This document shows, in pieces, positions 1 through 20,137 of a stretch of 20,137 nt of DNA; position 1 is the stretch's first letter, and every line of letters begins with the position of its first letter. A program made the translations under genes and the position numbers. Under the pieces are notes generated by a model. That model had not been told where the DNA came from. It made no database searches and was given only the letters and a program-made list of their open reading frames with translations. Source of the DNA: a virus. The stretch covers positions 1 to 20,137 of the IMG/VR virus record IMGVR_UViG_3300032282_000199; one strand, 5' to 3'.

Positions 1-144
1 ACATTGTTTAGTCAAGCCAAAAAGGGAAACACAGCCGCGGCAATCTTTTGGCTAAAGACACGGGCAAGATGGAAGGAAACAAGCACCCATGAAGTAACAG
101 GCGCAAACACGGGGCCATTGCTTATTTCTTGGGCAGATGAATAA
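1..144 (+). CDS. Terminase small subunit, C-terminal end (5' truncated)
   Basis: An open frame enters from the left edge in frame 1 and stops at TAA 142-144, giving about 47 residues. The peptide reads AKKGNTAAAIFWLKTRARW near residues 6-24, which matches the DNA-binding helix-turn-helix end of many phage small terminase subunits (Gly-Asn-x-x-Ala then I-F-W-L-K). The small subunit recognises viral DNA and recruits the large subunit for packaging. The large terminase gene starts inside it (ATG at 137, 8-bp overlap), the usual order for this pair. The call rests on this short motif plus the neighbour. The N-terminal part and start lie outside the window. Confidence 0.72.
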   Translation, partial: TLFSQAKKGNTAAAIFWLKTRARWKETSTHEVTGANTGPLLISWADE

Positions 145-1465
145 GATAAAGCTGGTATACCGTCCAAGGGGTATATTTAAAGACTTTCACGAAAGAAAAC
201 AACGCTGGGCAATCATCATAGCCCATCGTAGAGCGGGGAAAACGGTCCTTTGTATCAATGATTTGATATGTCGCGCCCTACTAGAGAACAAACCTAATGG
301 CCGTTACTTTTACTTAGCCCCTCTGTACAGTCAGGCTAAAAGCATTGCATGGGACTATTTAATCCGTTTTACAGCCCCTGTAGCCGTTAAAGCAAACCAG
401 TCGGAGTTATGGGTAGAACTTATAAACGGAGCGCGTATTCGCCTGTTTGGGGCCGATGCGCCCGATTCTTTGAGGGGCCAATATTGCGATGGGGCAGTTT
501 TGGACGAATTTGCCGATATGAAGCCCCGAGTTTGGGGTGAAATTTTAAGGCCGTTATTGGCTGACAGGGGCGGTTGGGCCGTCTTTATTGGGACGCCAAA
601 GGGACATAACGCCTTTTGGGAGATTTATCAGAAAGCAACGCTGGACGATGATTGGTATGTAAAAACACTTAGGGCCAGTCAAACAGGATTGTTGCCTGAC
701 GCTGAATTGATGGATGCCAAGAAAATAATGTCCCAAGCGCAATATCAACAAGAGTTCGAATGCGACTTTGAATCAGAAATTCAAGGGGCCATATACGGTA
801 AAGAGATGAGAATGCTAACCGACATTGGCAGAATCACAACTGTAGAGTATGACGACAACTTCCCCGTAATGACTGCATGGGACCTTGGTTATTCAGACGA
901 TACGGCCCTGTGGTGGTTCCAAGTTATTCATGGAGAGATTCGCGTTATTGAATACCACTCAAGCAATGGCAATCCAGTAGCGTATTACACCGGATTAATT
1001 AACTCAAAACCATATCGATATGGCACACATTGGCTACCTCATGACGCAAGAGCAAAAACTTTAGCAAGCGGCGGAAAGTCTATAATTGAGCAAATTTCTT
1101 ACAAAATTCCGTTAGAATCACTTAAAATAGTACCAAATTTGTCACTTCAAGACGGAATTCAAGCGGGACGGGTAGCTTTAAGCAGGGCTTGGTTTGATGC
1201 AGAAAAATGCTCAGACGGAATTGAATGCTTAAGACAATATCAGCGCGAGTTCGATGAGGACAAGAAGGTATTTAGGGACAAGCCAAGGCACGATTGGACC
1301 AGTCACGGCGCGGACGCATGGAGAATGCTGTCAATAGCGTGGCGTGAGGAAGAACATAAGCCGGCAAATCCTTACGATATGCGCGGTGTAACTGTTGGTA
1401 GCAACGATGTAACAATGAATGAAATGTGGGCTAGTACCCCAAAACCTTCAAAGGGTAGAATATGA
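137..1465 (+). CDS. terL: Terminase large subunit (packaging ATPase/nuclease)
   Basis: This 442-residue protein is the motor that pumps DNA into the procapsid and cuts the concatemer. The ATPase half has a Walker A AHRRAGKT at residues 29-36, a Walker B AVLDE at 120-124 with catalytic E124, and a coupling motif FIGTPKG at 150-156. The C-terminal half looks like the RNase H-fold nuclease: acidic candidates are D249 (AWDLGYSDD), D303 (LPHDAR) and D393 (HGADAW). Length is normal for the HRRAGKT type of large terminase, and all motifs are present, so the gene appears intact. The start overlaps the small subunit gene by 8 bp with no strong Shine-Dalgarno, which suggests coupled translation. The portal gene follows with an ATGA overlap. 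Motifs are seen directly; the function is known for the family. Confidence 0.96.
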   Translation: MNKIKLVYRPRGIFKDFHERKQRWAIIIAHRRAGKTVLCINDLICRALLENKPNGRYFYLAPLYSQAKSIAWDYLIRFTAPVAVKANQSELWVELINGARIRLFGADAPDSLRGQYCDGAVLDEFADMKPRVWGEILRPLLADRGGWAVFIGTPKGHNAFWEIYQKATLDDDWYVKTLRASQTGLLPDAELMDAKKIMSQAQYQQEFECDFESEIQGAIYGKEMRMLTDIGRITTVEYDDNFPVMTAWDLGYSDDTALWWFQVIHGEIRVIEYHSSNGNPVAYYTGLINSKPYRYGTHWLPHDARAKTLASGGKSIIEQISYKIPLESLKIVPNLSLQDGIQAGRVALSRAWFDAEKCSDGIECLRQYQREFDEDKKVFRDKPRHDWTSHGADAWRMLSIAWREEEHKPANPYDMRGVTVGSNDVTMNEMWASTPKPSKGRI

Positions 1466-3783
1466 ACGAAGAAATGCAGGGTTCTGAGTATCTAGGGACT
1501 GAATTCGAAACCGAATACGAAGATTGGTATAACACCATCTCGGCCTACGATAAATCCTTTAAGAAGTGGGAAGGCCGCGCAAGCAAGATTGTTGACAGAT
1601 ACCGCGATTCTAGCCGCCAACAAAACAACCCTGAAGCACGATTCAATATTCTTTGGTCCAATGTTCAGACCATTACACCAGCAATCTTCGCAAGACTACC
1701 AAGACCGGATGTAAGCCGCCGGTTTCGTGATAACGACCCTATAGGCCGAGTGGCATCAATGATGCTAGAACGCGCACTAGAGTTTGAATTAGAACACTAC
1801 GGCGACTATAAGTCAGCCATGAAGTCAGCAGTCTTTGACCGCCTTATTGGTGGTCGCGGCACTGCTTGGATTCGTTACGAACCGCATATCACCAAGACTG
1901 GCATTGAAGATGACGGCCCGCAGATTACTGAGGATGTCGAGGACGATGAAGGCATGGACCAAGATATGTCCGGTGCCGCTGGATTGCCTGAAGATGCATA
2001 CGAAGAAGAAATTGAATACGAATGTGCGCCAATTGACTATGTTCATTGGCGTGACTACGGCCACTCCGTAGCCCGTACATTTGAAGAAGTTACTTGCATA
2101 TGGCGTAAGGTTTACATGAACCGTAACGCCCTTGTAGAACGCTTTGGTGAAGATTTAGGCTGGAAGATTCCATTAGACACCAAGCCACAAGACAGCAAGT
2201 CCTACACAGCAAACACAGAAATGCCGTATCAGGCTTGTGTTTACGAGATTTGGGACAAGGAAACTAAGAAAGTTATATGGCTATCCAAGTCTTTAGGCGA
2301 AATCCTTGATGAACGGGACGACCCGCTAGAGTTAGAGAACTTTTGGCCATGTCCCAAGCCGCTTTATTCCACACTCACAACCGAGAACCTTGAGCCAATC
2401 CCTGACTTTACGATGTATCAGGACCAAGCACGGGAATTGGACGAACTGACAAACCGTATCGATGGACTGATTCATGCATTAAAAGTTCGCGGCGTTTACG
2501 ATGCATCCGAATCATCACTCCAGCGTTTATTCTCTGAAGGCGAAAACAACACTCTTATCCCAGTGAAGAACTGGCAAGCATTTGCTGAAAAGCAAGGCAT
2601 GAAGGGCGCGTTGGAATTGGTGGATATTGCCCCATTTGCGTCAGCATTAATGAATTGCTATCAAGCGATGGAGCAAGTTAAGGGTCAGATTTACGAAATT
2701 ATGGGTATTGCCGACATTCAGCGCGGCCAGTCAGACCCTAACGAAACTCTTGGCGCACAGATTATCAAGTCCAACAACGCATCCGGTCGTCTTAAGACCA
2801 TGCAACACGATGTGGTGGACTTCGCAACCAAGCTATTACAGTTAAAAGCAGAGATTATCTGCCGTCACTTCCAACCTGAAACAATCCTTCAAATTAGCGG
2901 TGCAAGCCAACTGTCAGACGCAGATAAGCAACTGATACCACAGGCCTTAGAACTATTAAAGCAAGACCCAGCTAAAAACTTCCGCATTGAAGTAACTAGC
3001 GATTCCATGATTTTCCAAGATGAGCAACAGGAGAAGCAGGACCGAGTAGAGTTTTTATCAGCAGTAAGCCAATTTATTCAAACAGCCCTGCCAGTAGCGC
3101 AAGGAGTGCCTGAATTGACCCCATTGTTGATGGAGATGCTTAAGTTTGGCGTAACCGCATTTAAGGCAGGCAAACAGATGGAAGGTTTGATTGACGAAAC
3201 AGCCGATAAGTTCCGCGAAGCCGCTAGAGCCGCAGAAGGCAAACCAAAACCACCTCCACCTAAAGTCCAAGAAATGCAAGCCGCCGCACAAGCTAAGATG
3301 CAAGAGATTCAGGCAAAAGCACAAGCCGACCTACAACTTAAGCAAGCTGATGTCGAAGTCGAGAAGATGAAGCAAGAGTTCCAATCACAGGAAACTCAGC
3401 TACGCATGCAGATGGAGCAACAACGCGACCAAGCAGAGTTTGAAATGCAAGCAAGAATTAAAGAGCATGAGATGGAACTGCAAACGCAAAAAGATATTCT
3501 CAAGACTTACCTTGATAATGCTACTAAAATTGAAACAGCGCGTATTAGTGCTGGATTGGACGCGGGCGATTTGGCCTACGCTGATGCAGTACATCAAGCC
3601 GGAATCATACAAGACCAAATGGGGTATAGCGATATGAAGAATCATCCATTACAGCCAGCGATTGAAAACATGAACCTGACTAACCAGCAAATGACACAAA
3701 TGCTGGCCGCGTTGATGGAAAAGCTAAATCAACCTAAGACAGTATTGCGCGACCAAAACGGTAAGATTGTTGGCGTACAGTAA
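1462..3783 (+). CDS. Portal protein, P22-like, with long helical C-terminus
   Basis: The product (773 residues) should form the dodecameric ring through which DNA enters and leaves the head, docking terminase outside and adaptors below. The N-terminal region has RFNILWSNVQTITPAIFARL followed by a Dxx-GR-type stretch (IGGRGTAWIRYEP). The middle carries a stem-like DELTNRIDGLIHALKVRGVY and then IQRGQSDPNETLGAQIIKS. These are typical of the large P22-type portals seen in many environmental short-tailed phages. Residues about 602-695 are a near-continuous Gln/Glu/Lys/Met-rich helix, resembling the internal barrel of P22 gp1. The start has a good upstream AAAGGG (1450-1454) and overlaps the terL stop (ATGA); the stop overlaps the next ATG (TAATG). 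The acidic stretch at about 155-180 is probably a loop. The portal call is strong; the P22 subfamily is inferred from length and the C-terminus. Confidence 0.92.
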   Translation: MNEEMQGSEYLGTEFETEYEDWYNTISAYDKSFKKWEGRASKIVDRYRDSSRQQNNPEARFNILWSNVQTITPAIFARLPRPDVSRRFRDNDPIGRVASMMLERALEFELEHYGDYKSAMKSAVFDRLIGGRGTAWIRYEPHITKTGIEDDGPQITEDVEDDEGMDQDMSGAAGLPEDAYEEEIEYECAPIDYVHWRDYGHSVARTFEEVTCIWRKVYMNRNALVERFGEDLGWKIPLDTKPQDSKSYTANTEMPYQACVYEIWDKETKKVIWLSKSLGEILDERDDPLELENFWPCPKPLYSTLTTENLEPIPDFTMYQDQARELDELTNRIDGLIHALKVRGVYDASESSLQRLFSEGENNTLIPVKNWQAFAEKQGMKGALELVDIAPFASALMNCYQAMEQVKGQIYEIMGIADIQRGQSDPNETLGAQIIKSNNASGRLKTMQHDVVDFATKLLQLKAEIICRHFQPETILQISGASQLSDADKQLIPQALELLKQDPAKNFRIEVTSDSMIFQDEQQEKQDRVEFLSAVSQFIQTALPVAQGVPELTPLLMEMLKFGVTAFKAGKQMEGLIDETADKFREAARAAEGKPKPPPPKVQEMQAAAQAKMQEIQAKAQADLQLKQADVEVEKMKQEFQSQETQLRMQMEQQRDQAEFEMQARIKEHEMELQTQKDILKTYLDNATKIETARISAGLDAGDLAYADAVHQAGIIQDQMGYSDMKNHPLQPAIENMNLTNQQMTQMLAALMEKLNQPKTVLRDQNGKIVGVQ

Positions 3784-4187
3784 TGGCTTCAAACTTAAAC
3801 TACAGCAACGGCACTAGGAACGCCCAGCAAAATGGCTTAATTGCCTATGCTGGGGCCGATGCCATCATGTTTATTTATTCGGGCGCGCAACCAGCAACCG
3901 CAAACACAGCCATATCAGGTCAAACCGTACTATGTCAAATGACGATTGGCGGGGCCTTTGGTACGGATAGCAACGGTACTTTGACAATTACGACCCCAAT
4001 ATCAGGGACCGCAGTAGCAAGCGGCACAGCTTCATTTTTTAGAATCACAAAGTCCAATGGCGCAACAGTCGTCATGGATGGTTCAATCGGTACAACGGAC
4101 GCAGATTTGATACTTGATACGACTACTATCAACAATACGCAGACGGTTACTATTTCTTCAGGCACGATTATCAGGAATAATATCTAA
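3783..4187 (+). CDS. Conserved small beta-rich phage virion-type protein
   Basis: A 134-residue protein, rich in Thr, Gly, Ala, Ser and Asn, with no cysteine pair or catalytic motif. It opens with NYSNGTRNAQQNGLIAYAG and continues with an alternating beta pattern (LTITTPISGTAVASGTASFFRI, then VVMDGSIGTTDADLILDTTT). This N-G-T-R-N-A-Q opening with a later V-M-D-G-x-x-G-T is a pattern I recall from many hypothetical structural-region phage proteins, but I know no assigned function. Its position between portal and fibre, with TAATG overlaps on both sides, suggests co-production with the fibre. It might be a fibre-associated, decoration or collar component; this is inference. No Shine-Dalgarno is obvious, so translation probably depends on portal termination. 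Confidence 0.72.
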   Translation: MASNLNYSNGTRNAQQNGLIAYAGADAIMFIYSGAQPATANTAISGQTVLCQMTIGGAFGTDSNGTLTITTPISGTAVASGTASFFRITKSNGATVVMDGSIGTTDADLILDTTTINNTQTVTISSGTIIRNNI

Positions 4188-6562
4188 TGGCTATCACCGT
4201 CAAACACCCCTTTGTCAGTACCGTACCTGATGCTACGGATACATCAATCGTCCGCCCTTCTAACTGGAATGCAGACCATACCGTAACTGGACTTGGCACC
4301 GCCGCAGAATTAAACGCAGGCGTAGCGAATGGCGTAGCAACTTTAGACGGTAGCGGAACCGTACCAATCAGTCAATTACCGGCCGCCGTATTGGGCGCGT
4401 TGAGTTATCAAGGCACATGGAACGCATCAACAAACACACCTACTCTTACAAGCTCAGTTGGTACTAAGGGTTACTACTATGTGGTTAATGTTGCCGGAAG
4501 TACAGACCTTAACGGAATTACCGATTGGAAAGTCGGCGATTGGGCCGTTTACAACGGAACAGCATGGCAAAAGATAGACAATACTGACGCAGTAACAAGC
4601 GTAAACGGCTACACAGGCACAGTCGTTTTAACTACTACGGATGTTGCTGAAGGCACAAATCAATATTTCACAACGGCTAGGGCTAGAACTTCTGTAAGTG
4701 CTGGCACAGGCATTAGCTACAACAGCACAACAGGCGTAATTACCAACTCTAGCCCATCTTTGGGTGGCGATGTAGTAGGCCCTGCTTCTGCAACAGACAA
4801 TGCAATAACCCGTTTTGATACGACTACTGGCAAATTAATACAAAACAGCGTTACTACAATTGACGATACAGGCAACGCTTCAGGTATTCTTTCACAGCAA
4901 TTTAGCAATGGTTCAGCCGTAACTTTAGCCGCAGGAAAGATATGGTATGACGGCTCTACTGGTGCTTGGAACGCTGGTATGGGTGGTGGCAACATTACCC
5001 AGCAAATAGGTGAAGAACTGTTTGTTTATGGTAAAGCTAGTGCCGCTATTACAGATAGTCCATTACAAATTGTTTACCATACAGGCACAGTAGGTGCTAG
5101 TGGCGTTATCACTTTTGCCCCTACGATTGCAGGAATTACTGATGAAAACGCTATTGTTGGTGTTGCTACTGAAAACATTGCTTTAAATGGCTTTGGTCGT
5201 GTAACCACATTTGGCGTAGTGCGTGGAATCACAACCAACGGTACGGCATTTGGTGAAACATGGGCTGACGATGATGTTATTTGGTACAACCCAGTAACAG
5301 GCAATCCAACCAAAGTAAAGCCTGTAGCACCTAATATTAAGTTTCAAATTGGTAATGTTATTAAAGCTGGTGCTGGTGGGTCAGGTTCATTCCAAGTGTC
5401 ATTAGTGCAAGGTACAGCACTTGGCGGCACAGACAGCAATGTCCAACTTACAAGTCCAACTGCCGCAAATTTACTCACATATAGCACTACAAGCGGATAT
5501 TGGAAAAACACAGCTTTAACGGCTGGTACTGGTATTAGCGTAGGAAATGCGGCAAGTGGCGTAGTCACAGTTACTAACTCTGCCCCTGACCAAACTGTAG
5601 TTTTGACTGCTGGCACAGGTATTTCAACTAGCGGTACATACCCTAATTTCACCATTACTAATACAAGCCCATCTAGCGGTGGTACGGTAACTAGCGTAGG
5701 CGGTACAGGTAGCGTAAACGGCATAACATTAAGCGGTACAGTAACTTCGAGCGGTAATTTAACTTTAGGTGGCACATTAGGCTCTATTGCCAATAGCCAG
5801 TTAACTAATAGTGCAATCACTATTAACGGCACAAGCACAAGTCTAGGTGGTTCAATTAGCGTAGGAACGGTTACAAGCGTAACGGGTACAAGTCCAGTAG
5901 TTTCCAGCGGCGGTAATACTCCTGCTATATCAATGCCAGCGGCAACAACTTCTGTAAGTGGTTATCTAACTTCTACCGATTGGAATACTTTTAATGGTAA
6001 ACAGCCTGCCGGCACTTATGTAACATCGGTTGCGGCAACTAGCCCAGTAACCAGTTCAGGCGGTACAACGCCAACCATTGCTATGCCAGCCGCTACGACT
6101 TCTGTTAGCGGATACCTTACAAGTACAGACTGGAACACCTTTAATAATAAAGGTTCAGGCACGGTTACTTCGGTAACTGGCACGGCCCCAGTAGTATCTT
6201 CCGGTGGTACTACTCCAGCTATTAGCATGGCGGCCGCAACTGGTAGCGTAAACGGCTATTTAACTAGCACCGATTGGACTACTTTTAACAGTAAAGCCGC
6301 GGCATTTACTTACACCACGGGTTACATTCCTTATGGCCAAGGCACAACTACCCCAAATCAATCGTCTAGCCTAACCTTTGCTAGTTCTACATTAACTGCT
6401 CCAATCGTCAGCGCAAGCAATGGACTGGTAGTTAATAGCAATACAGTATCGGCAAGCTATTCCATTCCTAGCGGTTCTTCTGCATCTTCAGTAGGCCCTA
6501 TGACCGTAGCTTCAGGCCAATCCGTAACCGTACCTTCCGGTAGTCGCTGGGTAGTCCTTTGA
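4187..6562 (+). CDS. Tail fibre / adhesin-like protein with tandem repeats
   Basis: This 791-residue Ser/Thr/Gly-rich protein is a likely receptor-binding or appendage fibre. The N-terminus (VKHPFVSTVPDATDTS, then VRPSNWNADH at 22-31) is a conserved start of phage fibre-like proteins. Residues 44-65 hold a GVATLDGSGTVPISQLP module. Residues 76-134 hold a GTWNA...GDWAVYNGTAW module, and 135-167 a VTSVNGYTGTVVLTTTDVAE shaft module ending in NQYFTTARA. A globular stretch of about 235-415 follows, then Gly/Thr-rich shaft. Residues 560-703 hold three repeats of about 48-50 residues. The last 45 residues end SVGPMTV...VPSGSRWVVL and resemble the C-terminus of the fibre at 19157. An AGGAA at 4173-4177 precedes the ATG, which overlaps the upstream stop. 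The fibre class is clear; the receptor is unknown. Confidence 0.87.
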   Translation: MAITVKHPFVSTVPDATDTSIVRPSNWNADHTVTGLGTAAELNAGVANGVATLDGSGTVPISQLPAAVLGALSYQGTWNASTNTPTLTSSVGTKGYYYVVNVAGSTDLNGITDWKVGDWAVYNGTAWQKIDNTDAVTSVNGYTGTVVLTTTDVAEGTNQYFTTARARTSVSAGTGISYNSTTGVITNSSPSLGGDVVGPASATDNAITRFDTTTGKLIQNSVTTIDDTGNASGILSQQFSNGSAVTLAAGKIWYDGSTGAWNAGMGGGNITQQIGEELFVYGKASAAITDSPLQIVYHTGTVGASGVITFAPTIAGITDENAIVGVATENIALNGFGRVTTFGVVRGITTNGTAFGETWADDDVIWYNPVTGNPTKVKPVAPNIKFQIGNVIKAGAGGSGSFQVSLVQGTALGGTDSNVQLTSPTAANLLTYSTTSGYWKNTALTAGTGISVGNAASGVVTVTNSAPDQTVVLTAGTGISTSGTYPNFTITNTSPSSGGTVTSVGGTGSVNGITLSGTVTSSGNLTLGGTLGSIANSQLTNSAITINGTSTSLGGSISVGTVTSVTGTSPVVSSGGNTPAISMPAATTSVSGYLTSTDWNTFNGKQPAGTYVTSVAATSPVTSSGGTTPTIAMPAATTSVSGYLTSTDWNTFNNKGSGTVTSVTGTAPVVSSGGTTPAISMAAATGSVNGYLTSTDWTTFNSKAAAFTYTTGYIPYGQGTTTPNQSSSLTFASSTLTAPIVSASNGLVVNSNTVSASYSIPSGSSASSVGPMTVASGQSVTVPSGSRWVVL
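5864..6295 (+). repeat. Three tandem ~48-50 residue protein repeats in the fibre
   Basis: Each unit runs from a T-S-V-x-x-T-x-P-V start, through S-S-G-G-x-T-P-x-I, to SGYLTSTDWNTFN or a close variant. The YLTSTDW core begins near residues 593, 643 and 691. The first two units share 21 consecutive identical residues (MPAATTSVSGYLTSTDWNTF plus N), yet 14 of those 21 codons differ synonymously, so the repeat is much clearer in protein than in DNA. Such repeats usually form the beta-rich shaft of trimeric fibres. Confidence 0.85.
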
Positions 6563-7080
6563 CCACAGCTTTTCAGCCGTCAGCGTTTCAAGGTTATGCC
6601 TTTCAGGTGGACCCTGTTACGGGTTCAATCTATGTTATTGACGAAAACGATGTAGCAACCCTGATGGGTAATGTCACCGGCGGCGGTGAAGGCATGGACA
6701 TGCACGATGGCGGCTATCGCAAAAAAGATGCATACAAAAAGCTACAAAACAAAATACAAAAAGCCCAAGAAGAACGGGACAAACTGTTTGCAGACATTAA
6801 TGCTCGCCGCAAGCTAGACCTTCGCAAAATTATTGCTCCTGAAACTATTGTAAAAGTTAAGGAAATTGAAGTAGAATCTGAACAAGCAATTGAAAAGCCT
6901 GAAGTTCAGATAGAAAACGCTGAAGCTAAGCTAAACAGATTGCTCTTGCAACAGCAGTATATGTTAAGAAGTATGGTTCAAAAGCAAGCCAAAGCGCAAT
7001 TTGATGCTTATATGGCTAAATTGCAGAAAGACCACCAAGACAACTTAGAGGACGAAGAAACGCTCTTAATGCTTTTATGA
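6559..7080 (+). CDS. AFQ-repeat N-terminus, coiled-coil virion-region protein
   Basis: A 173-residue protein that starts at TTG 6559, overlapping the fibre stop as TTGA. The start is supported because the first residues carry three AFQ repeats (4-6, 9-11, 14-16). I recognise this as a conserved N-terminal signature of phage structural-region proteins (FQ-x-x-AFQ), and it would be lost with any later ATG. Residues about 50-85 (GGYRKKDAYKKLQNKIQKA and onward) and about 100-160 are charged and helical, probably coiled coil. There is no enzymatic motif. Function is unknown. The tight link to the fibre, 3' end of which precedes it, suggests a fibre-attachment or assembly role; this is inference. 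The stop overlaps the next ATG (ATGA). Confidence 0.78.
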   Translation: MTTAFQPSAFQGYAFQVDPVTGSIYVIDENDVATLMGNVTGGGEGMDMHDGGYRKKDAYKKLQNKIQKAQEERDKLFADINARRKLDLRKIIAPETIVKVKEIEVESEQAIEKPEVQIENAEAKLNRLLLQQQYMLRSMVQKQAKAQFDAYMAKLQKDHQDNLEDEETLLMLL

Positions 7081-7973
7081 AGAACCCGCACGATTTATTC
7101 AAAGATGCCTTCAAACACTTGAACGCCGGAGAATATAAGGAAGGTTTTACGCTATACGAAAATCGTTGGCATCCTTTGACCCGCCAGTTACTGAACGAGA
7201 ACTGGAAAAAGTGGAATGAAGCCCCTACATGGCAGGGCGAGGACCTATACGGCAAGACTATCGTAGTCCAAATGGAGCAAGGATTTGGCGATGTATTCCA
7301 GTTTTATCGATTTTTACCTATGCTCAAAGTATGGGGCGCAAAAAAGCTGATTGTTTTGCAAGAAAAGTCCCTTGTACCATTCCTTATTCAATACCCTTGC
7401 GTGGACCTATCTACCGATGATTTTCAATTACCTGAACTCCAAGAAGCAGATTATTGGATTGGCAGTATGTCATTGGCGTATTTCGCTATTCATGCTCCTG
7501 CACAAGTTAAATATCTATTTCCCGTTACTCGTGAAAAGATTGTTGGGTCTGAGGGATACCTAGACTGCAATCCTAGCGAAATTGAGCCAAAAGTAGGCAT
7601 AAACTGGGCCGCCAGTCGTGGTCCTTTGCACTACTTAAAGTCCGTATCCGTGGAAGCTATGCGCGAATTATGCGGTTTAGATTGCTATTCATTAAACCCC
7701 GAAGCTGACGATATGTTTATTCCATTGCCGGAAGATGGCTGGAAACGCAACTGGTACCGCACAGCACAGCACATGAAAGCCATGAAAGGAGTGGTAGCAG
7801 TAGACACCGCTACGGCCCATTTAGCGGGTGCTATGGGCGTTAAATGCATTCTTTTGCTACCTGATGAGGACAGAATCGACTGGCGTTGGAAAAACGGCAC
7901 TTGGTACGACAGCATCATCGGTTTAAAGCGCGATGAATGGAAAGAAATCCCTGATTTGATAAGGAAAATGTAA
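7077..7973 (+). CDS. GT9/TPR-type glycosyltransferase-like protein
   Basis: A 298-residue protein resembling the glycosyltransferase domain found behind TPR repeats in bacterial proteins (related to heptosyltransferase/GT9 and O-GlcNAc-transferase-like folds). Residues 7-31 look like a single TPR-type hairpin ending in LYENRW. Residue 55 onward reads EDLYGKTIVVQMEQGFGD, with the EQGFGD core at 68-73, followed by FQFYRFLPML. A second block is KVGINWAAS at 172-180. The donor-site-like block is VDTATAHLAGAMG at 242-254, followed by DWRW at 268-271 and WYDS at 276-279. These blocks match the family in order and spacing, so the domain looks complete. A sugar transfer reaction is expected, but donor, acceptor and activity cannot be read here. 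It sits inside the virion operon with ATGA and TAATG overlaps, so a virion-glycosylation or appendage-related role is possible. Confidence 0.78.
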   Translation: MKNPHDLFKDAFKHLNAGEYKEGFTLYENRWHPLTRQLLNENWKKWNEAPTWQGEDLYGKTIVVQMEQGFGDVFQFYRFLPMLKVWGAKKLIVLQEKSLVPFLIQYPCVDLSTDDFQLPELQEADYWIGSMSLAYFAIHAPAQVKYLFPVTREKIVGSEGYLDCNPSEIEPKVGINWAASRGPLHYLKSVSVEAMRELCGLDCYSLNPEADDMFIPLPEDGWKRNWYRTAQHMKAMKGVVAVDTATAHLAGAMGVKCILLLPDEDRIDWRWKNGTWYDSIIGLKRDEWKEIPDLIRKM

Positions 7974-8365: not shown

Positions 8366-8389
8366 CGCCTGACTACTTAGGAGAATTAA

Positions 8390-9517
8390 ATGGCAGATTT
8401 ACGCGATGCACTAGAAGCACAATTTGAAGCCGCCGAAGATGGCACACTTGACGCACCTATTGAAAAGGAAATCGAATCAAATGACGACCCAATCCAAGCC
8501 GAAAGCCGCGCCCAAGAAGGTAGCGAAGAAAGTAGCCGTGAAGAAACCCGTGATGAAAAAGGTCGCTTCAAAGGTAAGTCCCAAGAAGCCAGTAGCCAAG
8601 ACTATTCCCCTGCGGAATCTAACGATGTGGGGCAGACTGATGCTGGCCATGAAGAATTTAACGAAGTAGGCATTCAACGTCCTACTACATGGAAAAAGGA
8701 CTATTTGCCTATTTTTGACAAAATAGCCGCAAATCAACAGTTAACACCTGAAGAATCTAAAAAGTTTTTAAGTTATGTAGCCGTCCAGCGTGAAAACGAG
8801 TTCAAAAGCGGTGTATCTGCTTACAAGCGTGAAGCTGACAATGCAAGGTCTTTGATTGAAGCCATTAGTCCGTTTGTGCCGGAACTGCAAAAGCAAAACA
8901 TTCACCCTGCTGCATGGATTAATAACCTAGGCCGCGCCCATATGATTTTGTCGCAAGCACCAATGCAACAAAAAATAGATATGTTTCAAAAACTTGCACA
9001 AGATTATGGTATACAATTTAATCCAAGTGAACAGCAATACGGAAACGAATCGCAATATGCGCCCGTTGACCCGTATGCTCAACAACTGTACCAACAGCTT
9101 CAACAGATGAACCAAGAAGTAAGTTCTCTTAAGGGCCGGTACGAGCAAGAAGATAATCAACGATTGATGTCAGAAATCAATCGGGTAGCACAAGATACGG
9201 AGAAGTTTCCGCATTTTGAAGCGGTACGGGAACAGATGGCTCAACTACTTGAGAATAATCTTGCCCCTGACCTCGAAACAGCTTATGCAAAAGCTGTGCG
9301 TTTGCAGGACGATGTTTGGCAACTTGAACAGAACAGACTTCTGAATCAGGCCAAACAATCTCAAAGCAAACAACAGCAAGTAGCGAAAGCGAAGGCGACT
9401 GCGGTAAGTCCAAGGTCCGTTACACCTAACGGGATGGTAGCTACAGGCGATAAAAACAAGGATAGGCGTTCGATGTTGGAATCACAAATTGATTCTGCAA
9501 TGAATGGCCGATTTTAA
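8390..9517 (+). CDS. Probable capsid scaffolding protein
   Basis: A 375-residue, highly charged protein immediately before the capsid gene. Residues about 1-95 are acidic and low complexity (Glu, Asp, Ser and Gln rich), with DEKGRFKGK near 53-61. Next comes RPTTWKKDYLPIFDKIA (about 95-111), a block I associate with phage scaffold-like proteins. The rest is Gln/Glu-rich helical sequence with probable coiled coil at about 225-330. The end is basic (KNKDRRSMLESQIDSAMNGRF). Scaffolds guide procapsid assembly and are then released or proteolysed; no protease gene is seen beside it. A clear Shine-Dalgarno AGGAG (8379-8383) sits 6 nt before ATG, after a 24-bp gap, suggesting independent and strong translation. 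Assignment rests on composition and position. Confidence 0.85.
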   Translation: MADLRDALEAQFEAAEDGTLDAPIEKEIESNDDPIQAESRAQEGSEESSREETRDEKGRFKGKSQEASSQDYSPAESNDVGQTDAGHEEFNEVGIQRPTTWKKDYLPIFDKIAANQQLTPEESKKFLSYVAVQRENEFKSGVSAYKREADNARSLIEAISPFVPELQKQNIHPAAWINNLGRAHMILSQAPMQQKIDMFQKLAQDYGIQFNPSEQQYGNESQYAPVDPYAQQLYQQLQQMNQEVSSLKGRYEQEDNQRLMSEINRVAQDTEKFPHFEAVREQMAQLLENNLAPDLETAYAKAVRLQDDVWQLEQNRLLNQAKQSQSKQQQVAKAKATAVSPRSVTPNGMVATGDKNKDRRSMLESQIDSAMNGRF

Positions 9518-9539: not shown

Positions 9540-10535
9540 ATGGCATTCGCTAACTCAGCAATCACCGATATTATCGCTACTACAATCCAAAGCCGTAGCG
9601 GTGAATTGGCAGACAACTTAACAAACAACAACGCGCTTCTGCGCCGCTTGAAATCTAAAGGTAATGTTAGACCCTTTAGTGGAGGAAATGTAATTTTAGA
9701 GGAGATCATGTATAACGATCCCGCTACCGATAATGCAAATTCCTATAGTGGATATGAAGTAATCAACATTCAACCTGATAGTCCTATCAGTGCCGCACAA
9801 TACTCAATCACTCAGTACGCAGACAGCGTAACAATGAGCGGTTTAGAAATGTTGCAGAATGCTGGTAAAGAAGCAATCATCGACTTGCTCGATGGTCGTA
9901 TGCAAGTATCTGAAGCTCGTCTTTTGAATCGTATTTCTACTGACATTTATGGTGATGGCACCGGCAATGGCGGAAAAAATATCACAGGACTTGCCGCGGC
10001 TGTTCCTGATGTTCCAACTACTGGAACCTACGGCGGCATCGATAGAAGCCAATGGACCTTCTGGCAGTCTAAGAAGTATTCAGGCGTAACCGATGGTGGC
10101 GCGGCTGTTTCTTCTACAAACATTCAAAAATACATGACTTCTTTGGCTATCCAATTAGTTCGTGGTAACGATAAAGCTGACCTTATCGTAGCTGACAATA
10201 ACTACTACTCATTGTATGTTCAGTCATTGCAAGCTATTCAGCGTATTACTTCCGAAGAATCTGCGGCCGCTGGTTTTGCGTCCCTCAAGTTCTACGGCGG
10301 CGGTACTTCAGCTGATGTCGTGTTGGATGGTGGTGTAGGTAATTCTTGTACTACTAACCACATGTTCTTCTTGAATACTAACTACATCTTCTTGCGCCCT
10401 CATAAAGAGCGTAACTTTGTACCTATCGGTGGTGAGCGTCAGTCCATCAATCAGGACGCGATTGTAAAATTATATGGTTGGGCCGGTAATTTAACGACCT
10501 CCAATAGTTTCCTCCAAGGCGTATTGATTGCTTAA
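9540..10535 (+). CDS. Major capsid protein
   Basis: A 331-residue protein, probably with the HK97 fold, that builds the head. The N-terminal part has the pattern SRSGELADNLTNNNALLRRL, then KGNVRPFSGG near 40-49 and YSGYEVINIQP at about 69-79. These blocks, together with SGLEMLQNAGKEAIIDLLD at about 100-118, are characteristic of a common capsid family in short-tailed phages. The C-terminal end (FVPIGGERQSINQDA then LYGWAGNLTTSN) is also typical. Codon use in most of the gene (CGT, CGC, GGT, AAC, ATC) fits high expression. AAGGA (9529-9533) lies 6 nt before ATG. Both GATC sites of the window lie in this gene, at 9704 and 9717. The fold is inferred from family knowledge. Confidence 0.92.
   Translation: MAFANSAITDIIATTIQSRSGELADNLTNNNALLRRLKSKGNVRPFSGGNVILEEIMYNDPATDNANSYSGYEVINIQPDSPISAAQYSITQYADSVTMSGLEMLQNAGKEAIIDLLDGRMQVSEARLLNRISTDIYGDGTGNGGKNITGLAAAVPDVPTTGTYGGIDRSQWTFWQSKKYSGVTDGGAAVSSTNIQKYMTSLAIQLVRGNDKADLIVADNNYYSLYVQSLQAIQRITSEESAAAGFASLKFYGGGTSADVVLDGGVGNSCTTNHMFFLNTNYIFLRPHKERNFVPIGGERQSINQDAIVKLYGWAGNLTTSNSFLQGVLIA
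9704..9720. other. Only two GATC sites of the window, 13 bp apart
   Basis: GATC occurs at 9704-9707 and 9717-9720 inside the capsid gene, and I found no other copy in the 20 kb on hand scanning. The flanking codons from about 9664 to 9790 (AGA, GGA, GAG GAG, AGT, CCC) differ from the codons just upstream. Confidence 0.85.
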
Positions 10536-10565: not shown

Positions 10566-10868
10566 ATGGCAACTGTATATTCAGTAACCCCAATCGCCGG
10601 TATTGATTTGAATGGTGTAACAACTACCAATACAAACTCTGCCGGTACTGCAATCCCAACATTTGGCCCTTTAGGTACTCAAGTGTTTGGTTCTGACGGT
10701 AAGCGTTATGTTTTCGCCAAAGCTGGCGCTACCATTTCTGCTTCAACAGCAGTATGCGACATCAATACCACTACATTCGTTGTAGCGGCTACTGGTGGTT
10801 CATATCTGTCACCAACCGTTGCGCTTGCTTCAGGCAATTACGCATGGTTTAGCAAGGCTTCAGTTTAA
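10566..10868 (+). CDS. Probable head decoration / capsid-associated protein
   Basis: A 100-residue protein, rich in Ala, Thr, Gly and Val, directly after the capsid gene (30-bp gap). It has the pattern VFGSDGKRYVFAKAGATISA at 40-59 and ends ALASGNYAWFSKASV. This is a small beta-rich family I recall following the major capsid gene in many phages. That position and size fit a decoration or capsid-stabilising protein, but no structure is implied by the sequence alone. A good Shine-Dalgarno AAAGGA (10553-10558) precedes ATG by 7 nt; the leader resembles that of the fibre gene at 19764 (both read AAATTAAAGGA). A terminator follows 25 bp after the stop, so this is the last gene of the capsid segment. 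Confidence 0.75.
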   Translation: MATVYSVTPIAGIDLNGVTTTNTNSAGTAIPTFGPLGTQVFGSDGKRYVFAKAGATISASTAVCDINTTTFVVAATGGSYLSPTVALASGNYAWFSKASV

Positions 10869-11581: not shown

Positions 11582-11584
11582 GAT

Positions 11585-12490: not shown

Positions 12491-12492
12491 TT

Positions 12493-14253: not shown

Positions 14254-14685
14254 TTGCGCCGCGTAACTACTGAAAATCAATCGCATTTAAGGGCGTGGAT
14301 TACAGGGGTTATGGGCATTCAGTTTGATGAAAATACCACTTGTATAGGGCAAGAAATTGACGGGGATGTGAAAGCGGTGATTGCTTACACTAATATTCAA
14401 GACAAATCTTGCTGTATGCATGTAGCAAGCATTCAAGACGGATGGATTAGTAAAGATTTATTGTGGGCGGCTTTTGATTACCCCTTCAACAAACTGAAAG
14501 TAAAGGTTATACTAGCGGCAGTAGCTTCAACTAACGAAGAAGCCCTGAAGTTAGACCGACACCTTGGTTTTGTTGATAAAGCGTATATCGAAGATGCCCA
14601 TACTGATGGGGATTTAGTTATATTAGCAATGCGGCGTGAAAACTGTCGATGGCTCGACATAAACGCCCCATTAAAAGGAGCATGA
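14254..14685 (+). CDS. GNAT-like acetyltransferase-fold protein
   Basis: A 143-residue protein that starts at TTG. Beta-strand KAVIAYTNI (40-48), CMHVASIQDGWIS (54-66), FDYPF (74-78), then VILAAVASTNEEAL (85-98), LGF (104-106) and VILAMRRENCRWL (122-134) match the family of short phage GNAT proteins often found between virion genes. In GNAT enzymes this fold binds acetyl-CoA and transfers acetyl to an amine. The usual R/Q-x-x-G-x-G/A CoA loop is not visible, as is common in this phage subfamily, so activity is uncertain. The acceptor is unknown. It is encoded between hub and an S74-bearing virion protein, so it may act on a virion protein or be a structural protein that kept the fold. Confidence 0.76.
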   Translation: MRRVTTENQSHLRAWITGVMGIQFDENTTCIGQEIDGDVKAVIAYTNIQDKSCCMHVASIQDGWISKDLLWAAFDYPFNKLKVKVILAAVASTNEEALKLDRHLGFVDKAYIEDAHTDGDLVILAMRRENCRWLDINAPLKGA

Positions 14686-14686
14686 C

Positions 14687-15760
14687 ATGGGTGGTGGTGG
14701 CGGAATATTAAGTCCTGTAACAAATTTACTGTTTGGTGAACCGCAACAAGCGGCAACACCGGACTACACAGGCGCGGCCCAAGCAACAGCGGCAGGCAAT
14801 GTAGCGGCGGCACAAACAGCTACTGCGGCAAACCGCGTAAACCAAGTAACTCCTTACGGAACGCTTACCTACACTGAATCAGGTACAGATTCTCAAGGCA
14901 ATCCACGATGGACTGCTACTCAAGCATTAAGCCCTGACCAACAAGCTTTATACAATATGGACATTGCAACAAGCAAAGGTCTGGGAGCATTACAAGAAAA
15001 AGGTCTTGGTTATGTAGGCAATATGCTGGACCAACCATTTGATACAAGCAAGCTTGTCAGCACCGGCATGGACCCAAGCCAAAGCTATCAAGATGCTTAT
15101 ATGAAGCGTTTGGCACCCCAAATTAATCAAAGCCGCGAACAATTGGACCAACAGCTTGCTAATCAAGGCATTAAGCTGGGTTCCGAAGCTTATAACCGCG
15201 CTAAAACATTGCAAGCACAAAAAGAAAACGATATTTTACTGGGAGCAACAACTCAAGGATTTGGCGTTGGTCAACAAGCTCGTCAGCAAGGCTTTCAAGA
15301 AGCGGCTTATCAGCGTAATGAACCAATCAACACCCTTAATGCAGTGCGTTCAGGTTCACAAGTTACAGGCCCAACCTTTGTAAACCCTTATAACCAAGCA
15401 ACTACAGCAGGCGCAGATTATATGGGCGCGGCTGGCTTAACTGGACAATCAAACATTGCTAACGCTAACGCGCAAAACGCGCAAACAAACGCCATGATGA
15501 GCGGATTGTTTAGTCTTGGCGGTGCTGGCGTAGCTAAGTATTCAGACATTCGCACTAAAGAAAACATTGTCAAGATTGGTATTGCTGAAAACGGTTTGCC
15601 GGTCTACATTTACGAATACAAGCCTGAATTTAAAGACCAACCACTTGCTGGTCATGGCTTGCAAGTCGGCCATATGGCGCATGAAGTGGAAAAAGCTTAT
15701 CCACAGGCTGTTATGACCCTTGAAAACGGATACAAAGCCGTAGATTACGGAATTCTATGA
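14687..15760 (+). CDS. Virion protein with C-terminal S74 self-cleaving chaperone
   Basis: A 357-residue protein in two parts. The body begins MGGGGG and is Ala/Gln/Gly-rich, with NRVNQVTPYGTLTY (49-62) and ALSPDQQALYNMD (80-92), then long helical, Gln-rich sequence to about residue 275. This body type recurs in podovirus-like virion modules and is probably an ejection or tail-tip protein. The end, residues 286-357, matches the intramolecular chaperone/peptidase S74 domain of endosialidase and fibre proteins: SDIRTKENI at 286-294, then VYIYEYK, VGHMAHEVEK and YKAVDYG. The catalytic Ser-Lys pair is S286 and K291, spaced five residues as in the K1F endosialidase. The domain should trimerise, assist folding and cleave itself off. 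AAAGGAG (14674-14680) precedes ATG by 6 nt. The stop overlaps the next ATG (ATGA). Confidence 0.83.
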   Translation: MGGGGGILSPVTNLLFGEPQQAATPDYTGAAQATAAGNVAAAQTATAANRVNQVTPYGTLTYTESGTDSQGNPRWTATQALSPDQQALYNMDIATSKGLGALQEKGLGYVGNMLDQPFDTSKLVSTGMDPSQSYQDAYMKRLAPQINQSREQLDQQLANQGIKLGSEAYNRAKTLQAQKENDILLGATTQGFGVGQQARQQGFQEAAYQRNEPINTLNAVRSGSQVTGPTFVNPYNQATTAGADYMGAAGLTGQSNIANANAQNAQTNAMMSGLFSLGGAGVAKYSDIRTKENIVKIGIAENGLPVYIYEYKPEFKDQPLAGHGLQVGHMAHEVEKAYPQAVMTLENGYKAVDYGIL

Positions 15761-16080
15761 ATATTGAAAATCCATACATGCAGATGACTAACTTGGGTGG
15801 CACAGACCCAACTATGCAAAACATTAATGCACAGCAACAAATGTATCAGCAAAATATGAGCAACATGGGTAACTTGGCCAATCAAGCAAAAGATACAAAA
15901 GGCACACAAATTGTGCAATTTGACAATAAAGCTATGGCTAACGCATTGCGCGCTGGACAAGAACCACCAAAACCCGCACCTGTGATTGATAACTCAACAA
16001 TGTCACCTAATGCTTATCAAGATTACATGGATTTGCTTAATGCTCAAAATCAAGATTACTTTGCTGGCTGGAGTAAATAA
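15757..16080 (+). CDS. Small Met/Asn/Gln-rich protein of unknown function
   Basis: A 107-residue product, unusually rich in Met, Asn and Gln (for example NINAQQQMYQQNMSNMGN at about 22-39). A proline-rich stretch EPPKPAPV lies at about 69-76. The C-terminus ends NQDYFAGWSK. I do not recognise a family, and no catalytic motif, signal peptide or membrane segment is visible. It is real as a gene because it is coupled on both sides: ATGA with the S74 gene and TAATG with the next gene. Its codon use is like that of its neighbours. It may be a virion, ejection-complex or chaperone component, judged from place alone. Confidence 0.66.
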   Translation: MNIENPYMQMTNLGGTDPTMQNINAQQQMYQQNMSNMGNLANQAKDTKGTQIVQFDNKAMANALRAGQEPPKPAPVIDNSTMSPNAYQDYMDLLNAQNQDYFAGWSK

Positions 16081-17282
16081 TGGCACAAATTGACCAAACA
16101 AGTCCTTATCAAGCAGAGATAGTCGGGTTAGACCGTCAACGCAAACTTGCTCAAATGCTCTTAAAACAGGGCATGGACCAAAACAACATGCAAGGTCAAA
16201 TGGTGTCCGGCCGTTATGTTGGTGCTAGTCCGTGGCAAGGAATTGCTAACTTGGCACAAATTTGGGCTGGTAAGTCTATTGGTGAAGAAGCTGATGTAGA
16301 ACAAGGAAAAATTGCTGAAAGATTGCGTAATCTTGGTAAACAAGAAGTTAACGCAATTATTAACAGAGCAAAAGGCACCGAAGAATTGGCTGGCCCCGCT
16401 TATCAAGGCGTTGCACCATCTATTCAATATCCTGAAGGAAAAGCCAATACAGACGCGGCACTTGCTATGGCCGCTGGCGCACAAACACCGGAAGGTCGTG
16501 CATTTGCCGCTCCGTTGATGGCTAACTTTATTCCTAAAGAAATTACACCTTACGAAAAAGAAAAACTGCGTTTAGAAGAAGAAGCACTAAAACTTCAAAG
16601 AGCAAACGCTGGGCGCGTAAATATGACGCCATTTGAGAGTAGTAACGGCATGGTGTTTAATTACAATCCAAGAACCGGTCAATATACACAAGCATTAGAT
16701 GCAAGTGGCAAGCCTATTATGGGCAAAGCCAATGCTTTAACAGAAGCTCAAGGAAAAGCTACCACTTTCCAAGGCACTATGATGAACGCCGCTAAAAACA
16801 TGAAGGAATTGGAAGATAAAGGATATAACCCTGCATCATTCAAATCTCAAGCTCAACTGTCCGCTCCTTCTATGGGTAATGTGGCTATTCCAGTGCAATC
16901 ACAACAATACAAGCAAGCGATGGATAACTTTGCTAACGCTTATTTGCGATTCCAGTCCGGCGCAAATATGTCTGAAGCAGAAATTTCTCGCAACCTTCGC
17001 GAAATGATGCCTGTCTTTGGCGACAAACCTGAACTTATAAAACAAAAAGCTGATGCTCGTGAGCAAGCTATTCGTTTGATGGGATTCTCGGCAGGGCCGG
17101 GTGCACAAATGAACGCAGTAGCAAATCCAAGCTTAACGCCAACTGCTCCTCCTCAGGCATCAGCGGCTCCTGCAAAGCCTGCACAAGCAGAAGCACCACA
17201 AACAGCATGGATGGGCAATCGTAAAATTGTTGTGCGTGGAAACGGATGGGTCTACGAAGATAATGGACAGGCGGTGAAATAA
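16080..17282 (+). CDS. Probable internal virion / DNA ejection protein
   Basis: A 400-residue, Ala/Gln-rich, mostly helical protein with no catalytic motif. The N-terminus (about 16-70) has DRQRKLAQMLLKQGMDQ, GQMVSGRYVGASPWQGIANL and IWAGKSIGEEADVEQGKIAE, a pattern I recognise from proteins in the ejection region of short-tailed environmental phages. A helical section EKEKLRLEEEALKLQRANAG follows (about 158-177). The centre has AYLRFQSGANMSEAEI (about 292-307). A Pro/Ala-rich linker (about 350-372) leads to a small end domain with RKIVVRGNGWVYEDNG. The ejection role is inferred from location and composition; no membrane segment is clear. GGAG (16070-16073) precedes ATG, which overlaps the upstream stop. 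Confidence 0.7.
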   Translation: MAQIDQTSPYQAEIVGLDRQRKLAQMLLKQGMDQNNMQGQMVSGRYVGASPWQGIANLAQIWAGKSIGEEADVEQGKIAERLRNLGKQEVNAIINRAKGTEELAGPAYQGVAPSIQYPEGKANTDAALAMAAGAQTPEGRAFAAPLMANFIPKEITPYEKEKLRLEEEALKLQRANAGRVNMTPFESSNGMVFNYNPRTGQYTQALDASGKPIMGKANALTEAQGKATTFQGTMMNAAKNMKELEDKGYNPASFKSQAQLSAPSMGNVAIPVQSQQYKQAMDNFANAYLRFQSGANMSEAEISRNLREMMPVFGDKPELIKQKADAREQAIRLMGFSAGPGAQMNAVANPSLTPTAPPQASAAPAKPAQAEAPQTAWMGNRKIVVRGNGWVYEDNGQAVK

Positions 17283-19153
17283 TGGCTATACCACTACCTA
17301 CTGGCGCAAGCTTAACTCCTCCTCCTTTACCAAAAGGTGCGTCACTAACTGCCCCTGAACAAGGCAATATGTATACGCAGGGCGCAGAGGATATTGTCTA
17401 TGACCAAGCAAGCGGTATGCCTTTATACACATCGTCTTATGGTTCTGCTCCTACCGGAACAACGGAAACATATCAAAAAGGTTTAACAGCCGCGGCCGCA
17501 TTACCAGTAAACATTGCAACCGGCGTAGCTAAAAACGCTGGCGGTGTTGCACAAACTTTAGGCAAATATTTTGGTGTTGGCGGTCGTTCTGCTGATGAGA
17601 TGGTCAACGCTATTAATCAGATTGAATCAGGCACTCAAGCGGCTTCAGGCGACACAGGCGGCACAATTAGTGCTATTGGTAGTGCAGTAGGTCAAGCGGC
17701 CCCATGGCTTGCCACAGGCGGCGGCGTAATCCCTAGCTTTGCTAAGGCAGTAGAACGCGGATTTGTAACTGGCGGTGCTTCAGCTTTAGCAACTCCTGAA
17801 CAAGTAGGGTTAACCCCTGAACAGTTTGCGGATGCAAAGAAAAAGAACATTATGTTGCAGTCCGGTCTTGGCGTAGCTATGCCATTTGCCGGTAAATTGA
17901 TTGGAACTGGCTATAACGCAGTAAAAGGCGCATTAGAGCCATTTTATGAAACAGGCAAAAATCAGATTCTAGGCCGCGCATTACGCGAATTTGCAGGCGG
18001 TGAAGCCGATACAGCCATTTCTAACCTTAAAAACGCCCCTGAATTAGTTAAGGGTTCAATCCCAACCGTAGGACAAGCGGCAGGGGTCCCATCATTGGCG
18101 GCCCTAGAAAACAGCGTAATGGCATCCAGTCCGCAAGCTAAGAACTTGTTGGCCGGTACCAAAGCCGCGCAAGAACAAGCCCGTGTGAACGCTTTGGAAG
18201 GCATTGCAACGCCAACCCGTGTAGGAAAGTATGCAGACCTACGGGAACGGTTAGGCGAAGAATTGTATGCAGATGCGCTAAAACCCCTGAATTTAGGCAC
18301 TTTGAACCCTAAAATGGAAAAAGAAATAGGTGGATTGATTAGCCGTCCAGCTATTGCTAACGCCATGGAAGCGGCTAAAACCAATGCCGCCAATAAAGGA
18401 TTAAATATTGCGGACCCAGCAGGCTCCATGACTGGCTTGCATCAAACCAAAATGGCTTTGGACCGCGAAATTGCATCCGTTAAGGGTAAGCTAGCCCGCG
18501 ACCAAGCTGGTTCCACAAGCGCAGAATTAGATGCCTTAAATTCAGCTAAAACTGACCTTTTGAAATTTATGGAAAAGGTTAGCCCTGAGTACAAAACTGC
18601 TCGCGAAACTTATGCAAGAGTATCTAAGCCGGTAGAACAGTTAGAAAGCATTCAAGGACTAGCTAAGAGTTCAGTATCTGAATTAAGTGACAAAGTCAAA
18701 GCTGGTCAGTTTATGAATAACTTGGCAAAGCTTAAAGACGAAGGCATCCTTTCTGACGCGCAACTTAAACGCTTGACCAATATTGCAGAAGATATTAAAC
18801 GCGGCACTAAAGCAGAAGCCGCTGGACGCGGTACTGGTTCAGATACAGCGCAAAAGCTTGCATATAACAATATGCTTAATATGTCCGGCATTCCTAATGC
18901 ATTACGCAATTGGGGACCAACGCAAACAATTGGAAACATGCTAGGCCGTGCCGCAGATTTTGGATACGGTCGTCAAAACAAAGAACTGCAAGCAAAACTT
19001 GCGGAAACTATGGTCAATCCAGCAGAAGCCGCACGATTGATGGAAATGGCCGCGCCAAAAGTAAGCATTGCCGGACCAACGACACAAAAAGCCAAGCAGT
19101 TAGCTAAAATGTTAATGATGCAAACTACTGGCCAAGCCCTTCAAGGAGAATAA
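17282..19153 (+). CDS. Probable large DNA ejection / internal virion protein
   Basis: At 623 residues this is the largest protein of the ejection block. The N-terminus has a twice-used LPxGASLT motif (5-12 and 16-23). Residues about 66-100 and 125-150 are Gly/Ala/Val-rich and weakly hydrophobic (GGTISAIGSAVGQAAPWLAT), of the kind that could insert into membranes during DNA ejection. The rest is Ala/Lys/Glu-rich helix, with likely coiled coil at about 330-520 (including LHQTKMALDREIASVKGKLA). There is no lysozyme or transglycosylase motif, so peptidoglycan attack is not supported. Its start overlaps the upstream stop (TAATG). Its end carries the Shine-Dalgarno AAGGAG (19143-19148) of the fibre gene. 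Role is inferred from composition, size and place. Confidence 0.72.
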   Translation: MAIPLPTGASLTPPPLPKGASLTAPEQGNMYTQGAEDIVYDQASGMPLYTSSYGSAPTGTTETYQKGLTAAAALPVNIATGVAKNAGGVAQTLGKYFGVGGRSADEMVNAINQIESGTQAASGDTGGTISAIGSAVGQAAPWLATGGGVIPSFAKAVERGFVTGGASALATPEQVGLTPEQFADAKKKNIMLQSGLGVAMPFAGKLIGTGYNAVKGALEPFYETGKNQILGRALREFAGGEADTAISNLKNAPELVKGSIPTVGQAAGVPSLAALENSVMASSPQAKNLLAGTKAAQEQARVNALEGIATPTRVGKYADLRERLGEELYADALKPLNLGTLNPKMEKEIGGLISRPAIANAMEAAKTNAANKGLNIADPAGSMTGLHQTKMALDREIASVKGKLARDQAGSTSAELDALNSAKTDLLKFMEKVSPEYKTARETYARVSKPVEQLESIQGLAKSSVSELSDKVKAGQFMNNLAKLKDEGILSDAQLKRLTNIAEDIKRGTKAEAAGRGTGSDTAQKLAYNNMLNMSGIPNALRNWGPTQTIGNMLGRAADFGYGRQNKELQAKLAETMVNPAEAARLMEMAAPKVSIAGPTTQKAKQLAKMLMMQTTGQALQGE

Positions 19154-19156
19154 TTA

Positions 19157-19738
19157 ATGTCACGGAATGGAACGGGTACTTACAATCTCCCAGCTGGGAA
19201 CCCAGTGGTCACTGGAACCACAATTAGCTCTACATGGGCTAATAACACCCTTACGGATATTGCTAATGCATTAAGTGGTTCAGTCGCGGCAGATGGTCAA
19301 ACTCCAATGACCGGTCAGTTAGATATGAATAGCAACAAGATTAAGAATTTGATAGCAGGAACAGCGGCAGGACAAGCGGTAGAGTTTGCACAATTTACTA
19401 CGCCAACATTTACCGGCGATGTCACCATGCTATCGACCGGTTATGTATTGATTCCTAAAGGAACAACAGCAGAACGCCCATTGGTTCCTGTAGCCGGCGA
19501 AATTCGCTACAACACAGACTATGGTCAATACGAAGGCTACTACGCAAGCGGCTGGTCACAAATTGGTGGTGGTGCTACAGGTGGTGGCGGTGACCAAGTA
19601 TTCGTAGAAAACGGTGTTACCGTTACAACCTCTTATACATTGACTACAAACAAAAATGCCGAATCTGTTGGGCCAATCACAATCAACGCAACCAAGACTG
19701 TTACCATTCCAAGTGGACAACGCTGGGTAATCTTGTAA
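19157..19738 (+). CDS. Short tail fibre / appendage protein
   Basis: A 193-residue protein with a recognised N-terminal virion-attachment pattern, MSRNGTGTYNLPAGNPVVTG, then TTISSTWANNTLTDIANAL (21-39), common in podovirus-type fibres. GQLDMNSNKIKNLIAGTAAG (53-72) is a typical fibre shaft start. IPKGTTAERPLVPVAGEIRY (99-118) and the nearby Y-x-G-Y-Y-A-S-G-W form another widespread fibre module. The last 41 residues (SYTL...SVGPITI...TVTIPSGQRWVIL) resemble the end of the big fibre at 4187. It is short for a complete receptor-binding fibre and may be an adaptor or side-fibre base. AAGGAG lies 8 nt before ATG. Confidence 0.85.
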   Translation: MSRNGTGTYNLPAGNPVVTGTTISSTWANNTLTDIANALSGSVAADGQTPMTGQLDMNSNKIKNLIAGTAAGQAVEFAQFTTPTFTGDVTMLSTGYVLIPKGTTAERPLVPVAGEIRYNTDYGQYEGYYASGWSQIGGGATGGGGDQVFVENGVTVTTSYTLTTNKNAESVGPITINATKTVTIPSGQRWVIL

Positions 19739-19763
19739 AATAGACGAAATTAAAGGATAAACA

Positions 19764-20137
19764 ATGAGTTCAATCGTTCTTTCGGGTGATACAAGCGGTA
19801 CAGTTACCGTATCAGTCCCTGCCGTAGCTGGTACGAATACCGTCACAATACCTGCGGTTACTGGTACTGCGGTTGTTTCAGGTCAAAATAGTGCCATTAC
19901 TGCTGGTACTGCCGTAGCTTCTACAAGCGGAACATCTATTAGTTTTACTGGTATTCCATCTTGGGTAAAGCGTATTACTGTAATGTATTCAGGAACATCA
20001 ACTAATGGAACTTCAGGAGTTATTGTTCAACTTGGAACTGTTAGCGGTTTTGAAACAACCAGTTATATAAGTGCTGGGGCTTATTGTGGCGCAAGCACAT
20101 ACGGTATTACTGCCACAACTGGATTGTTAGCAACCGC
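19764..20137 (+). CDS. Tail fibre-like protein, 3' truncated by window edge
   Basis: The frame opens at ATG 19764 and is still open at the right edge (about 124 residues seen). It begins MSSIVLSGDTSGTVTVSVPA, then GTNTVTIPAVTGT and ISFTGIPSWVKRITVMYSG, a pattern I recognise in the start of many phage fibre/structural proteins. The W-V-K-R-I-T-V core followed by GVIVQLGT suggests a beta-sandwich. A clear AAAGGA precedes ATG within AAATTAAAGGA (19749-19757). It follows the other fibre by 25 bp and is probably part of a multi-gene fibre set. Length and C-terminus cannot be judged here. Confidence 0.83.
   Translation, partial: MSSIVLSGDTSGTVTVSVPAVAGTNTVTIPAVTGTAVVSGQNSAITAGTAVASTSGTSISFTGIPSWVKRITVMYSGTSTNGTSGVIVQLGTVSGFETTSYISAGAYCGASTYGITATTGLLAT

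Follow-up and report, generated by a model that had tools for sequence, protein, structure and literature searches.

Why is GATC almost missing from this stretch of virus DNA, and is it the only word to have been lost? The stretch, hereafter the window, is the whole of IMG/VR record IMGVR_UViG_3300032282_000199 (20,137 bp; G+C 44.9%). Its genes are of terminase, portal, capsid and tail types by their PHROGs matches and indicate a tailed dsDNA phage, and the window is probably a piece of a genome of 32-36 kb, a size read off longer relatives. The terminase large subunit (137..1465, + strand; phrog_2, 1.1e-35), which served as the query for finding relatives, is about 42% identical to those of Pelagibacter, Rhodoferax and Methylophilales phages. 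It is followed by a portal protein (1462..3783, + strand; phrog_12082, 5.6e-181) and, further on, by the major capsid protein (9540..10535, + strand; phrog_9953, 4.3e-107), on which our tree is based and for which the nearest named capsids, those of BUCT555, ppBjS10J-1 and Mx8, are 51-53% identical.

No near-DNA match to the window was found in 50,697 phage records. As hints to a host, a genome scan returned only terminases at most 47% identical to the window's, and ten loci of five phages yielded one tRNA. A partial search of proteins (the record lacks the early region of the window phage) gave no integrase, and the phage is probably virulent. Amid the tail genes lies an acyl-CoA N-acyltransferase-like gene (14254-14685; phrog_4470, 8.9e-38), and an acetyltransferase is annotated at a similar place in BUCT555, ppBjS10J-1 and HTVC100P. 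Between the tail-fibre-like and capsid genes, positions 7077-7973 encode a 298-aa protein for which PHROGs, Pfam and PADLOC gave no match.

Words removed from the window

The two copies of GATC given in the earlier note, at 9704 and 9717, are the only ones in an exact count of the 20,137 bp. Its observation that ATC and GAT are plentiful is also borne out: 226 ATC and 316 GAT triplets are present, so the scarcity sits in the tetramer GATC. The large shortfall stood while the figures behind it shifted, base composition giving 75.7 expected copies rather than about 70 and the measured G+C being 44.9% rather than about 43%. A maximum-order Markov model predicts 49.8 copies, and a shuffle that preserves every protein and the codon usage puts the expectation at about 48 and not near two (48.4 ± 5.3 over 1000 runs, z = −8.7; lowest shuffle 32-34).

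Four further words are depleted to a similar degree in the same codon shuffles. ACGT, rarer than GATC, occurs once (8677..8680) against 57.5 expected (z = −9.9), and GCWGC, the strongest depletion of the words tested, once (8909..8913) against 57.6 (z = −11.2). CCNGG is also found once (17097..17101; expected 25.8, z = −5.5), as is RGCGCY (10725..10730; expected 19.5, z = −4.5). Observed-to-expected ratios are thus all below 0.1 (GATC 0.04, ACGT 0.02, GCWGC 0.02, CCNGG 0.04 or lower, RGCGCY 0.05), and for these five main motifs the depletion exceeds what codon usage and protein sequence impose (z from −4.5 to −11.2). The shuffles rule out chance, base composition and codon usage as explanations, and the motifs of the window were also recovered by Markov and greedy motif searches. 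CGWCG (0 against 21.6, z = −5.1) and CCAGA/TCTGG (2 against 40, z = −5.8/−4.4) have probably been purged as well. The latter is low in both orientations; one of its two copies is at 10060..10064 on the − strand (TCTGG on the + strand) and the second at 14980.

The removal is specific to particular words. ACGT and GATC, both palindromes, are the only plain tetramers strongly depleted in the window, where no non-palindromic tetramer falls below a ratio of 0.63; CCAGA is the one asymmetric exception among the depleted words. GCNGC in total is near expectation (104 against 108) while GCSGC is doubled (103 against 50.8), so that the loss of GCWGC amounts to a third-position swap, the pattern that synonymous swaps would give. 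Likewise, GCGC overall is normal (67 against 65) while RGCGCY has been removed.

Both residual GATC sites lie in the major capsid gene, 13 bp apart and in conserved codons, the first (9704..9707) spanning the Glu-Ile codons GAG-ATC and the second (9717..9720) the Asp-Pro codons GAT-CCC. Several GATC-tolerant relatives carry the same sites, and GATC avoiders mostly write GAA-ATC and GAC-CC at these two positions. The pair may, for instance, have been imported together in a short piece of DNA from a relative that tolerates the word.

Purged sets among relatives and their turnover

Scanning IMG/VR with the terminase and the capsid turned up 160 loci, at least two of which share one contig, and 41 records were read whole. 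GATC is missing from nearly all terminase relatives. All genomes were scored with identical thresholds against one and the same list of Type II specificities; the list and the assignment of enzymes to removed words draw on REBASE specificities. Up to 18 of 52-56 testable specificities are missing at once in nearly complete relatives (G007, G014, G015 and G016). The same test gives five for the window, six for T7, eight for N4 (first 40 kb), three for lambda (first 40 kb), one for sk1 and none for ppBjS10J-1, and none for sequences simulated from each genome.

Expected counts in relatives come from a second-order Markov model, which for CCNGG in the window gives a higher figure than the codon shuffle (57 against 26), so that for words of five and six bases the relatives' counts have less precision than the window's. 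In the 44-kb genome G011, observed and expected counts are 0 and 130 for ACGT, 0 and 101 for GATC, 0 and 92 for CCGG and 0 and 105 for CCNGG. Degenerate Type II specificities are also among the words removed from relatives (RCATGY, GGYRCC, GGWCC, CMGCKG and GTYRAC). Loss of GCWGC is confined to two of 71 scored records, the window and G018.

Other kinds of depletion were also seen. In G040 (loci L237 and L238, with L169 on the same contig) and in L170, strong depletion already affects the trinucleotide ACG/CGT (the two strands together have 43 ACG in G040 against 523 in G042); TCGA is near expectation and CCGG is absent. The non-palindromic CCCG/CGGG is nearly absent from G005, G006 and G008 (ratios 0.07-0.15) and came up in G027 and G029 too; GAGC is low in G005 (0.17). 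CCCG/CGGG and GAGC are possible candidates for asymmetric restriction targets.

Close relatives differ in their purged sets. GATC counts are 115 and 0 in two phages whose aligned parts are about 85% identical, and counts of 0 in G022 and G025 stand against 119, 115 and 85 in G023, G024 and G026, which are near expectation. Among 72 relatives, ACGT, CCGG and CGCG nearly always have a ratio either below 0.1 or above 0.4, and in-between values are more frequent for GATC and CCWGG. On the capsid tree, GATC requires at least six changes of state and ACGT and CGCG nine each, counts that are rough since the tree was made quickly and many of its forks are weak; such repeated changes rule out inheritance alone. 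Motif states differ even among phages with 97-99% identical capsid proteins: G011 and G018, with capsids 98% identical and genomes 76% identical where aligned, differ in seven.

At homologous positions, all 63 coding GATC sites compared between G024 and G025 differ, 81% of them synonymously, whereas eight control tetramers retain 40-68% of their sites in the same pair. All 61 coding sites compared between G023 and G025 likewise differ (82% synonymously). These comparisons are undirected and do not tell which genome changed. The replacements are chiefly GACC/GGTC, i.e. A-G and T-C changes.

Proposed host restriction and its alternatives

It is very likely that several motifs have been purged under selection exerted by the Type II restriction-modification systems of the host population. 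We infer host Type II endonucleases as the agent behind the depletions, their specificity, their mostly on/off states, their turnover and the synonymous route. Phage DNA without a site could not be cut, so that variants with fewer sites would spread, and sites would be lost mostly through synonymous changes. If lineages meet differing sets of host systems, the purged set should differ among them and turn over quickly, and GATC would be one entry in the set of the window lineage, together with ACGT, CCNGG, GCWGC and RGCGCY. Such restriction explains the palindromic and degenerate targets, the synonymous route, the loss of CCAGA in both orientations and the lineage-specific sets. Exposure to a GATC-specific host system, as proposed in the earlier note, therefore survives in the part that supposes long contact with a sequence-specific system; the restriction to GATC does not, several unrelated palindromes being gone.

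Some observations weigh against host restriction. We know of no Type II specificity that matches CGNCG, CGWCG or CCAGA, which are among the removed words. For most motifs, the window retains one or two sites. Methylophilales and Pelagibacter phages also miss many motifs despite their streamlined hosts, so the pressure on them would need a host population wider than the laboratory host. Bloom-forming cyanobacteria are rich in restriction systems and carry very many of them (PMC8262939), for which reason Microcystis was weighed as a host; two Microcystis phages have purged sets unlike the window's in the same specificity test.

Selection on GATC alone, whether it acts by Dam methylation, in repair directed by MutH or through a single system specific to GATC, has been discussed for T7 and phiX174. 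It would fit the near absence of the word from the window and from T7 (6 against 141 expected), and phiX174 lacks any GATC (PMC5014478). As the sole cause, however, it is contradicted, and we consider it very improbable, although it could add pressure on GATC. ACGT, GCWGC, CCNGG and RGCGCY have been removed equally well from the window, and neither Dam nor MutH can account for the missing ACGT, GCWGC and CCNGG. A single GATC-specific system is no full account either, as relatives purge other sets with or without GATC: G023, G024 and G042 keep normal GATC yet purge other motifs, and even GATC-keeping phages lack, or nearly lack, AGATCT, CGATCG and GGATCC. A GATC adenine methylase was found in none of the relatives searched (PF02086, 0 of 21; PF05869, 0 of 42; the window record lacks the early region), and a phage Dam methylase was rejected as cause or substitute, there being no gene for one in these 21 or 42 records.

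Decay without selection, in which deamination of 5-methylcytosine made by a host or phage enzyme erodes the sites, would give C-to-T products of ACGT, and ATGT is in fact enriched in the window (91 against 65). Cytosine methyltransferase genes (PF00145) occur in nine of 42 records of relatives, and PF01555 in ten of 42. Against this, GATC has been replaced mainly by GACC/GGTC and not by GATT or AATC, a spectrum that rules such decay out for GATC, and the number of removed motifs is alike with or without methyltransferase genes (p = 0.37), which makes methylation-driven loss a poor general account that we think has very little chance of being right. The same lack of relation led us to reject the idea that methyltransferases of the phages stand in for avoidance. 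One relative, G018, which shares the window's loss of GCWGC, encodes a protein of 395 aa in which a ParB-like domain is fused to an N6/N4 DNA methyltransferase (L110:3390-4577; PF02195, PF01555).

Sequence-specific nucleases of the phage itself, destroying host DNA and sparing a genome without their sites, could produce complete removal without any host system. To account for the removal of up to 18 specificities, a genome of 36 kb would then have to encode many nucleases, and the early region of G018 offers little of the kind: PHROGs gave no site-specific nuclease for ten of its proteins, and searches of ten proteins each in Pfam and PADLOC gave a single weak PD-(D/E)XK match beside a PHROGs exonuclease match. 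We regard such self-protection, too, as highly unlikely. Least likely of all is that the words are rare on account of composition or codon usage, of common descent or of an artefact of the library, since, although depletions are common to many relatives and several of these have lower G+C, codon usage is excluded for the window by the shuffles, states differ at 97-99% capsid identity, and metagenome 3300020044 yielded both the GATC-rich G024 and the GATC-free L032.

With host restriction as the preferred cause, we are evenly divided on a broader reading, namely that the clade carries an evolving barcode of up to 18 purged sites, each gained or lost on the short scale that separates near relatives, such that the genome of an uncultured phage might serve to list the restriction systems that its unseen hosts possess, among them undescribed specificities such as CGNCG, CGWCG or CCAGA. 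With many motifs almost fully purged, sets that vary among close relatives and homologous sites open to site-by-site comparison, the clade offers a natural experiment on the speed at which restriction reshapes phage genomes and a possible route from the genomes of uncultured phages to restriction repertoires and to links with hosts.

Comparison with known cases of site avoidance

Descriptions of restriction-site avoidance usually deal with a known host and a single motif or a handful of them. In a survey of viral genomes with which the host-restriction account agrees, orthodox Type II sites were almost the sole targets of elimination, which was strongest in non-temperate dsDNA phages and complete or nearly complete in about one tenth of the genomes (PMC6286503). 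The near-complete removal of Type II sites reported here, with ratios under 0.1, is like the cases of Rusinov et al. 2018 (PMC6286503); unlike them, many specificities go together and the sets differ between near relatives.

The coliphages T7 and N4 resemble the window in being nearly without GATC, N4 having 1 copy in its first 40 kb against 124 expected, and the likeness to T7 drawn in the earlier note holds in its counts. Both also miss some further sites, as the window does; they differ in that members of the clade miss up to 18 specificities, against six in T7 and eight in N4, and that the five missing from the window are a different set. The Methylophilales phage Venkman EXVC282S, which infects a marine OM43 host and has a terminase 42% identical to the window's, is likewise without GATC, ACGT and CCNGG. 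Venkman misses 11 more specificities, and it lacks CTNAG and GGCC, both of which the window keeps or reduces only mildly. CTNAG is wholly absent from Venkman (L083; 0 against 148) and from Pelagibacter phage HTVC010P (L082; 0 against 113). In the Mx8-like capsid group (Mx8, BUCT555 and ppBjS10J-1), which holds the closest named capsids, BUCT555 misses only four of the tested specificities and ppBjS10J-1 none, unlike the clade. The kind of mechanism is already known. Measured against 14 named phages, the breadth of removal and the quick turnover of sets are unusual.
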